64,000 bases of DNA. Origin: Glandiceps talaboti. Taxonomy: Eukaryota > Hemichordata > Enteropneusta > Spengelidae. Under the pieces are notes generated by a model. That model searched no databases and had not been told where the DNA came from. It worked only from the letters and a program-made list of their open reading frames with translations. The stretch spans positions 21,808,949 to 21,872,948 of the forward strand of contig NC_135553.1 of the NCBI RefSeq assembly GCF_964340395.1, in the 5' to 3' direction. How positions within the stretch are numbered: position 1 is the first letter of the stretch; each line of letters opens with the position of its first letter. Both the position numbers and the translations under genes were made by a program. This document shows, piece after piece, positions 39,733 through 42,744 of this stretch.

Positions 39733-39978
39733 ATGTTTTCAGAATTTCTGCGAGTAACATTGTATTTTGTAGCCGCAGTTTTCATTGCCAACTTAATTGG
39801 GATCATTTCAGTGTGGCTTGCAGACGTAACACGCCCCACATGTTCAAGGACTGAAGTTAGAAGAAACGAACCCGATACAAGTTCAAGTAGTGAAGACAGC
39901 GATAGCGATGATGCGAGTGACGTAGAAGACGACGCCCCAAGTGTTCGACGAAGACGTTGGACAAAGCTCGGAGGATGA
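39733..39978 (+). CDS. Candidate membrane microprotein overlapping the MRM2 start
   Basis: An ATG-initiated 81-residue ORF. Residues 5-29 (FLRVTLYFVAAVFIANLIGI then ISVWL) form one strong transmembrane helix. A Ser/Asp/Glu tract follows (SSSSEDSDSDDASDVEDDA), then a basic end [10 protein letters not shown]. Its TGA (39976-39978) overlaps the MRM2 ATG (39975-39977) in the arrangement ATGA. No intron separates the two, so one mRNA would carry both frames, and MRM2 would need reinitiation or leaky scanning. Protein-like composition and the 5'-most ATG support translation, but no homologue is recognised. Alternatively transcription starts inside this ORF and it is not expressed. Confidence 0.5.
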   Translation: MFSEFLRVTLYFVAAVFIANLIGIISVWLADVTRPTCSRTEVRRNEPDTSSSSEDSDSDDASDVEDDAPSVRRRRWTKLGG

Positions 39979-42744
39979 TTTTTACGATGAGAAGAGCCGT
40001 TACGTGTATTAGTTCAAAGGTACGAGGGTTTCACAACAGCCATCATTTGGCGAAAAAAGTACCCAGAAATTTGAAAGGAAGGTCCAAAAGTTCACAAGAA
40101 TGGATTGCGAGACAACTGAATGATCCATATGTGAAATTAACACAGGTGAGAATTTTTTCATATTAGTATTTCTTCAAATTCTTGTACCAGTAATTCAAGA
40201 TTTAATTCTTTGGAGTGATGAAATCAAAGTACAGTGATGATAATGAATTGTAGAACATCCCTATAACATTTCAACTACAAATGCTTATAAATCATATATC
40301 ATGTATATTTGTATATGGTCTATATAATATCTTAGATCATGATATCATGTCATGTCATATCATACACAATATAATTTATCTGTATATAGTAATTTACATG
40401 TCGATGTCATTCTTGTATTTAGTAATATTATATTTAATTTTAATGAAACTTAATATTTTTAAAGCACCTTTCCACAATTAATGTATAGCTCTGTATGATA
40501 ATTTTATTACAACATCACAGATTCGTGTGACACAACAGTCCTTATACATCTTCCCAACTCCCTTTTAGAGTGTTCAATGAATCCATTACACTCTCTTTGT
40601 CCGAAAGTGAATATGATCAAATCATAAATTTAAATCTATTTGTCCTATTAGCTCTCGACATTTATACAACTGGGTTGACCATTCTTTTTCTTCTTGTCTC
40701 TGTTTCCTAACAGTTTCAAAACTACCGTGCAAGAAGTGCATACAAACTACTGGAAATAGACGACAAGTATCACATACTAAAACCTGGTAATGTGGTCATA
40801 GATTGTGGTGCTGCACCTGGATCCTGGACTCAAGTTGCTGTGAAAAGAGTCAATGCTACAGGTCAAGGTATCATATTCCATGTCCTTGTATAGGTTTGAA
40901 TATTTCAGGTTATTTCTGATTTGTTTCTTGACATCCCATTCATTCACTGTCGGGGGGTCAATGCCTCACATTTCTTGGGTTATCTGATGGTGAGGTGTTT
41001 CGAGTATCCATCCTCTCGTTCAGGATATTAATCAGGCTAAATAAACAATGGCACTGTTCTACAACAGAATTAATTAAACTATCAGCAAATTAGGATAGAC
41101 ACAAACTAAATAATATAATATATGATATGGTATGATGCTATGATAATATCATTGGATACGACATGACATGACATGATATGTGATAATATAGTATAATGTA
41201 ATATTATATGATAGAATAGAATAGAATAGAATAGAACAGAATAGAACAGAATAGAATAGAATGGAATAGAATAGAATAGAATAGAATAGAATAGAATAGA
41301 ATAGAATAGAATAGAATAGAATAGAATAGAATAGAATAGAATAGAATAGAATAGAATAGCATATAAGATATACTCATTAATCAATTTGCCACTTAACATT
41401 CACCAAGCCTCCAGCCTGGATTGTTTCAAAACAAAACTGAAGACTTATTTGTTCACCCAAGCGTATAGTGTGTTATAGCCATTCAGCGCTACTGAACAGA
41501 ACATTGCTCTGGAAATCGGCACTATAGAAATTTGATTGATTGATTGATCAACATTAAATTCAGATATTCAAATATGGTTGCCACTTGTGCAGTGCCAAAA
41601 TACCCCTAGCTACTGTTGAAGCTGGAGGAAACCAGAATACCAGAGGAAAATATATGTTGTTCGGTAGGGTCAAACTGAGCATCAACCATAATTCTTACAG
41701 CCAACTCTGGGTAGGTTTAAACCCAGACTAAAGTAGTAAGAAGCACACAAGCTAACCACTCCACCACCAACATCCAATTTACCTGTTGTTAATTAATGCA
41801 TGTGGTAGATTCACAATGTAACTGGATGACAACAGTGTCTTGATTATGTAGATATCATGCAGTATACTGGTAATCATCCTATAATCATGATTGTGTGAAC
41901 ACTGAATGAGGAATAGACAGCCACTTTTAGGAATTTCAAATCTTTCTATCAGAAATACCATCCTTCTGTGAGTGTAATGTTCATTGATTCTGTAAACCTG
42001 GATATTTTTGTTAATGACTTGCTTTCACTTATTGTGCAGGAAAATAACAATGTACCAGTCTAGTAATTAGTAAAAATTAGTCTGTGAGAACAAGATGAAG
42101 ACTGTAAAATCACAACATTTTCTAGTGGCAAAAATATATAGGTTTGCAATAGCTGATATCAGTATGTTGCTACAGTAGTTTTAGTTTGTGTCTGTCATAG
42201 TTTGTCAATAGTTTGATTTCTGTAAGTAGTAAGACAAGGACCACAAAACAACAATTCAGGAATGTATGAGAGAAAACCAAATCCATATCATTTTGTTTTT
42301 ATTTGCAAATCCACAGATGACAACTCACTGAAGGGTCAGGTGATTTCTGTTGATTTGAAATACTTTGATCCTATAGAAGGTGCCGTTACAATTCACCAAT
42401 CAGATTTTACCTTGGACGCAACCCAAGAGAAGATCAAGAAAGTAATGCGAAAAGAGAAAGCAGATGTAATATTGAGTGATATGGCTCCAAATGCCTCAGG
42501 ATTGCACACAATGGACCATGAAAATATCATAGCATTGTGTACATCAGCTTTTACCTTTGCGCATCAAGTCCTACGGACAAATGGAACATTTCTGTGTAAA
42601 TTATGGGAAGGGGGATTAAGTGGGACTTTTAGGAAAGAACTGAGCAAGTCATTCAGAATGGTGAAAATTGTAAAGCCAGACTCAAGCAGAAAGGAGTCAG
42701 CAGAAATGTTCTTTCTTGCAAGAGGATTTCAAAAAGTTAAATAA
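39975..42744 (+). CDS. MRM2: Mitochondrial 16S rRNA 2'-O-uridine methyltransferase (MRM2/FtsJ family)
   Basis: Exons 39975-40145, 40714-40867 and 42317-42744 join in frame to 250 residues, close to the usual length of animal MRM2. The enzyme uses S-adenosylmethionine to 2'-O-methylate a uridine in the mitoribosomal large-subunit RNA. The N-terminus ([20 protein letters not shown]) is a typical matrix-targeting leader. [19 protein letters not shown] opens the RrmJ fold. The K-D-K-E catalytic set is visible: Lys in [10 protein letters not shown], Asp in [13 protein letters not shown], Lys in [11 protein letters not shown] and Glu in [13 protein letters not shown]. The SAM loop is [16 protein letters not shown]. 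Exon 2 could also end 6 bp earlier (GTCAAG donor), dropping two residues. AATAAA overlaps the stop codon. Confidence 0.96.
41210..41359. repeat. (ATAGA)n microsatellite
   Basis: About 30 pentanucleotide units in intron 2 of MRM2. Confidence 0.95.
41390..41550 (+). mobile_element. LINE 3'-end fragment
   Basis: The plus strand encodes [20 protein letters not shown] and a stop, the usual C-terminus of CR1/L2-type reverse transcriptases. A short 3' UTR follows, ending (ATTG)n at about 41534-41548. Extreme 5' truncation inside intron 2 of MRM2. Confidence 0.7.
41563..41778 (-). mobile_element. tRNA-derived SINE, copy 2
   Basis: The minus strand carries an A box-like TGGTGGAGTGGTTAGC and B box-like GGTTTAAACC, and shares CAGTTTGACCCTACCGAACA and GGTTTCCTCC with 30698-30953. 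More diverged than copy 1. Confidence 0.65.

Follow-up and report, generated by a model that had tools for sequence, protein, structure and literature searches.

A window of 64,000 nucleotides from the genome of Glandiceps talaboti, the whole stretch of DNA analysed here, appears, with slightly better than even confidence in the model as a whole, to carry a bicistronic gene in which an ORF for a membrane microprotein precedes MRM2, with leaky scanning as the main route by which ribosomes reach MRM2. Transcription would probably start in the 120 bp that separate the ORF from a divergent flavin-reductase-like gene, a spacer common to both, and a single mRNA would carry both start codons in its first exon. 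Ribosomes halting at AUG 39733 would produce an 81-residue single-pass membrane microprotein, those passing it by leaky scanning would initiate MRM2 at 39975 or 39987, and the microprotein ORF would thereby also damp MRM2 output. The start of transcription, the mRNA common to both ORFs, their translation, the topology of the microprotein, the leaky scanning, and the damping are each inferred. The ORF, its overlap with MRM2, the coding-like codon choice, the single copy of each found in the genome, and the start contexts are observed. The features concerned are as follows.

39529..39612, minus strand: first coding exon of the divergent flavin-reductase-like gene, with its ATG at 39612.
39613..39732, no strand: spacer of 120 bp between the divergent ATGs, a probable bidirectional promoter.
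39733..39978, plus strand: microprotein ORF of 81 codons plus TGA, with an ATG start, read in the sequence.
39840..39925, plus strand: internal AUGs at 39840, 39908, and 39911 within the microprotein ORF, opening mini-ORFs of 4-5 codons.
39975..39978, plus strand: ATGA in the sequence, where the microprotein stop (TGA) overlaps the first possible MRM2 start (ATG).
39975..40145, plus strand: MRM2 coding exon 1, starting at ATG 39975 or the in-frame ATG 39987 and ending at the donor CAG/GTGAGA.
40714..40866, plus strand: MRM2 exon 2, with a 3′ border placed by eye and uncertain by a few bases.
42316..42744, plus strand: MRM2 exon 3 with the stop codon and a 5′ border placed by eye.

An earlier note on this DNA had described an 81-codon ORF with a transmembrane (TM) helix, an acidic Asp/Ser tract, and a basic tail, whose stop codon shares bases with the MRM2 start; all of these features are present, including an RRRR motif in the tail, and the shared bases are the ATGA at 39975-39978. 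Since a second in-frame ATG lies at 39987, MRM2 could begin at 39975 at the earliest, and this start is not a proven one. The identity of the downstream gene is supported by Pfam FtsJ matches to exons 1 and 2 joined (2.6e-17) and to exon 3 (1.1e-33). With exon 3 as the query, the 590-Mb, 47-contig genome gave one match at E ≤0.01 and no MRM2 paralogue, and MRM2 must therefore come from this locus.

The ATGA overlap is by itself ordinary and weighs little as evidence. MRM2 codon 2 starts with A, so a stop at ATGA awaits any ORF that is open in that frame, and 24/275 unannotated ORFs of at least 60 codons end in the same way. These ORFs come from a 254-kb background, made up of the window and 19 stretches of 10 kb, in which 355 ORFs were found; removal of the ORF itself and of 10 that overlap training exons left 344, and removal of 69 low-complexity ORFs left 275. 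What needs explanation is the open, coding-like frame rather than the ATGA overlap.

Codon usage was scored with a table trained on 19 exon pieces (1,415 codons) picked by eye in the window, five of them raptor-like pieces for which Pfam support is a weak WD40 match. The raptor (RPTOR)-like exons themselves were recognized by eye at 47853-57913 on the minus strand, their one WD40 match lying below the Pfam cut-off. In its own frame, the only one of six above zero, the microprotein ORF had a per-codon score of 0.061; the other five frames scored -0.068 or lower, with negative values in all three reverse frames across the span of the ORF. When each known exon piece was scored on a table trained without its own gene, 5/19 reached 0.061, 11/19 were above zero, and the true forward frame was best in 16/19. 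Dinucleotide shuffles of the ORF reached its codon score in 1/2000 cases and kept the frame open in 21/2000. Local shuffling within 30-nt blocks, by which T-rich and purine-rich parts stay in place, reached the codon score in 5/20000 cases, an open frame in 193/20000, and the hydrophobicity in 183/20000, with hydrophobicity and codon score reached together in none of the 20000. Among GC-matched 243-mers, taken from windows that overlap and may hold exons, 2/231 reached 0.061 in the best of six frames. Three of the 275 unannotated ORFs scored as high, at least one of them gene-like (C-type-lectin-like, by eye), and none matched both the codon score and the hydrophobicity of the microprotein ORF.

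Synonymous choice was also scored alone, because amino-acid content might mislead. With the protein kept constant, the score of the ORF was reached by 3/3000 resamplings (z about 2.7), near the z values of 2.6-3.2 for four known exons that were themselves in the training set. Both the codon score and the synonymous-only score fall within roughly the outermost 1% of their nulls. Scored apart, the two halves of the ORF gave -0.069 and -0.020, neither above zero, and in each half the true frame scored best among the three forward frames. Ahead of ATG 39733, 21 in-frame codons scored -0.019, about equal to the tail half, so the codon signal does not mark the start of the ORF. Three-base periodicity of the ORF was 2.35, a value reached by 30/5000 shuffles; it was high (1.72) in the 243 bases upstream and low (0.50) in the true MRM2 exon 1, and periodicity was therefore given no weight as a poor discriminator here.

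These statistics bear on the reading that no gene under selection is present here and that the frame is open by chance, in 5′-UTR or promoter sequence of a GC-richer stretch. Such an origin would fit a protein with no homologue or family match above a cut-off, an antisense strand that is likewise open for 100 codons (39711-40013, minus strand), and the frequency in unannotated ORFs of ATGA endings and of TM-like stretches as strong as that of the microprotein (24/275 for each), as well as the in-frame stretch before the ATG that scores no worse than the tail half and the periodicity upstream; it is nevertheless quite unlikely, given codon and synonymous-only scores so far into the tails of their nulls and 0/275 ORFs that reach codon score and hydrophobicity together. 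By single-genome codon and synonymous statistics, the ORF is very probably under coding constraint, and the codon-level evidence makes it very probable that the microprotein is a real gene product.

The predicted protein has four recognizable parts.

Residues 12-30: N-terminal TM helix, the best 19-residue hydrophobic window (mean KD 2.39).
Arg 34, 39, 43, and 44: basic juxtamembrane stretch after the TM helix.
Residues 48-68: Asp/Ser-rich tract, with 8 Asp in residues 48-67 and no long runs.
Residues 72-76: RRRRW tail, with four Arg at 72-75.

AlphaFold2 run without an alignment predicted one confident helix at residues 2-33, with pLDDT block means of 92, 98, and 93 over residues 1-30, followed by a low-confidence tail. 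The basic side of a TM helix tends to be cytosolic (the positive-inside rule), and the four arginines after the helix, against R7 alone before it, therefore suggest a cytosolic C-terminus. The product is thus probably a single-pass membrane microprotein with its Asp/Ser tail in the cytosol. The protein has five [ST]xx[DE] sites, which would suit casein kinase 2, and the Asp/Ser tract holds four of these. A predicted tryptic peptide is NEPDTSSSSEDSDSDDASDVEDDAPSVR.

The microprotein had been described as unfamiliar, and it matches no known family, every match lying below its cut-off. The most suggestive match was to FAM176/EVA1 (PF14851), which scored 17.1 bits where the cut-off is 31.5. The likeness is weak and colinear, including LYFV in the TM helix, the Ser/Asp tract, and SVRR. 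Alignment with a presumed sequence of human EVA1A scored 87, a score reached by 2/2000 block shuffles, and it speaks for the likeness that only 1/20 block-shuffled copies scanned, taken from a set of 30, gave a FAM176 match at E ≤1. Human EVA1A has what we take to be a conserved C-terminal tail, and the microprotein ORF ends before any such tail. Membership was rejected on the Pfam cut-off, the missing tail, and the genome matches to the profile, which does not disprove distant kinship. At E ≤10 the PF14851 profile matched 110 places in the genome, the best at 32.9 bits, none of them the microprotein ORF; seven were inspected, of which the top four fall in low-complexity repeats and three weaker ones have no convincing EVA1 gene. 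The presumed EVA1A tail had its best match in the window inside an O-FucT exon, which is unconvincing, and none in the genome at E ≤10, in a search run without a positive control. Other candidates were set aside: Treacle (17.5 bits against a cut-off of 23, matched by 0/20 shuffles), taken as probable Ser/Asp low complexity; YxzE (16.3 against a cut-off of 40), judged compositional since it is matched by 7/21 sequences scanned, the microprotein being one of the 21; and Nucleo_P87 (8 bits, E 1.5).

Homologues were likewise sought in collections that hold almost no animals, and none was found in the PDB, viral contigs, prokaryote genomes, or NCBIfam. The PDB sequence search returned two unconvincing chains (E 0.12 and 0.51), 31 pattern stretches in viral contigs and 257 in prokaryote genomes included no relatives, and NCBIfam gave no match at E ≤1. 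A search of the Glandiceps genome itself returned the microprotein and one E 1.5 match beside a repeat. At the RNA level, Rfam gave nothing at gathering scores, and folding of 39713-40010 (z -1.68, with 12/200 shuffles as stable) was nothing special.

Elsewhere the window holds pieces of a TauD-family dioxygenase gene (15989-25374, minus strand), of which 3/3 scanned match PF02668, one above the cut-off, and ORFs that by eye resemble non-LTR retrotransposon reverse transcriptase (26500-27726 and 9674-10570, both minus strand). A long microsatellite-like repeat coding for SE/SD and open in several frames lies at 58985-59284. In the genome, mitochondrial COX1 occurs three times in one contig at a spacing of 15,435 bp, probably as tandem mitogenome copies from assembly, and its ATA codons read best as Ile when judged against presumed conserved positions; ATA as Ile fits echinoderms or hemichordates.

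Upstream of the microprotein ORF, the exons of the divergent gene, joined by eye, match Pfam Flavin_Reduct at 1.5e-40 over residues 60-200. The spacer between the two genes contains CACGTG at 39689, TGACGT at 39648, ATGCGCA at 39633, and an initiator-like TCAGTT at 39711, motifs to which we presumptively assign promoter meanings, and it is perhaps a compact bidirectional promoter serving two mitochondrial genes. The absence of an intron between the microprotein and MRM2 ORFs, as noted earlier, agrees with a splice-site scan by a weight matrix of presumed values, which found no donor of at least 4 bits in 39600-40160 except that of MRM2 exon 1 itself. Acceptor-like sites at 39779 and 39824 are weak, at 3.0 each against 5.4 for MRM2 exon 2. 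No AATAAA or ATTAAA occurs in 39500-40713, and a processed retrocopy, which would map the 5′ end of the mRNA, was sought in the genome and not found. It is likely that the microprotein ORF and MRM2 lie on one mRNA, because the divergent gene is close and neither a good donor before that of MRM2 nor an AATAAA/ATTAAA signal is present. The earlier suggestion of a membrane microprotein linked to MRM2 thus stands in part, as to a real microprotein and a likely mRNA in common; the functional coupling to mitoribosome maturation that it also raised is conjectural.

The region could instead comprise two overlapping transcription units, in which the microprotein would come from a long mRNA and MRM2 from a short one that starts downstream of 39733, so that MRM2 would be independent of passage through the upstream ORF. 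Six loose initiator-like matches fall in 39738-39835, the region is CpG-rich for this genome (observed/expected 1.29 against 0.51 for the window), and the three internal AUGs would hamper scanning from a distal start. However, the loose initiator motif is degenerate, the CpG content may stem from Arg/Ala/Asp codons, and the sole strict TCAGTY on the plus strand in 39500-39980, at 39711, lies upstream of the ORF. Two such units are unlikely.

The leaky-scanning bicistron is favoured because the microprotein AUG has a weak context and those of MRM2 are better. AUG 39733 stands in TCA-AUG-U, with T at both -3 and +4. The two MRM2 AUGs, in AGG-AUG-A and ACG-AUG-A, both have A at -3; A/G at -3 and G at +4 were seen at three further starts picked by eye elsewhere in the window. 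Weak first-ORF contexts with leaky scanning are reported for Drosophila sloth1/2 (PMC9681215) and for green algal bicistrons (PMC11892635). The microprotein ORF contains three internal AUGs against a mean of 5.6 expected, a mildly low number (three or fewer in 8% of 5000 resamplings), two of the three with a purine at -3. These would capture scanning ribosomes and weaken the case for leaky scanning; their mini-ORFs are just 4-5 codons long.

On the same bicistronic mRNA, MRM2 might instead be translated mainly by coupled termination-reinitiation at the AUGA, with the Asp-rich tract and RRRR pausing the ribosome. AUGA is among the stop-restart overlaps listed in a review (PMC5972666), and human CASQ2 coupling is described as requiring Asp at the C-terminus of ORF1 and no RNA sequence (PMC3923131). 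The microprotein has its 8 Asp and four Arg ahead of a stop after residue 81, and GGAGGA lies immediately 5′ of that stop, a GA motif before the stop being linked to termination pausing in a preprint (PMC12458348). The likeness to CASQ2, an Asp-rich ORF1 end with an ORF2 start at the ORF1 stop, has limits: the CASQ2 overlap is 81 nt against 4 nt here, coupling depends on runs of Asp at, or close to, the extreme C-terminus, and a construct with nine Asp and then Glu failed (PMC3923131). The fit to a CASQ2-type mechanism is partial only, because the tract Asp are neither in runs nor at the extreme end, the last lying 14 residues from it. CASQ2 coupling was also measured at 82-fold below ORF1 (PMC3923131), which would be a low yield for a gene of which a single copy was found. 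Termination-reinitiation of the viral TURBS type is not supported, since it calls for UGGGA within tens of nt upstream of the stop-start, and the sole UGGGA, at 39798, lies about 180 nt away on the 5′ side, too far. Mainly reinitiated MRM2 translation is, on this analysis, improbable. Highly improbable is a fuller scheme, an operon-like metazoan gene joining a phosphorylatable membrane microprotein to MRM2 through the AUGA stop-start, whose Asp-rich/poly-Arg nascent chain would set MRM2 restarts and make the peptide both product and cis-regulator.

Among the papers that it covered, the literature search found none on MRM2 with an upstream-ORF microprotein, no title on an MRM2 bicistron among the matches listed, and no title or abstract start to the point on hemichordate bicistronic genes among the matches listed. 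MRM2 has no occurrences in the main text of PMC4568590 or in that of PMC13303939. The fly MRM2 is presumably CG11447. That name has no occurrences in the main text of PMC2276209, which reports an association of Drosophila conserved-peptide uORFs with mitochondrial proteins and with methyltransferases; MRM2, being both mitochondrial and a methyltransferase, is alike in this respect.

If confirmed, the gene would bring an unnamed membrane microprotein, tied in this instance to mitoribosome maturation, into the small set of bicistronic genes known in animals, and would offer a natural cellular test case of eukaryotic ribosomes reaching a second ORF across an AUGA overlap. A gene of this sort would probably escape annotation pipelines.

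Comparison with known systems places the leaky-scanning bicistron in familiar company. Drosophila sloth1/sloth2 likewise has a small single-TM ORF and a weak first Kozak context before a better second one, with almost no spacer (5 nt) where the microprotein and MRM2 ORFs overlap by 4 nt. Leaky scanning in sloth1/sloth2 is backed by reporters (PMC9681215). The sloth products, both small and paralogous, act on complex III, whereas ORF2 here encodes a larger, unrelated rRNA methyltransferase. Human STREMI-SLC35A4, MIURF-MIEF1, PYURF-PIGY, and ASDURF-ASNSD1 are similar in that a 5′-UTR ORF yields its own protein before a normal CDS; those cases draw on PhyloCSF, Ribo-seq, and long reads (PMC13303939), compared with single-genome statistics in Glandiceps. 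The microprotein is previously unnamed, and its kind is already known from Sloth1/2, MIEF1, and STREMI-SLC35A4.
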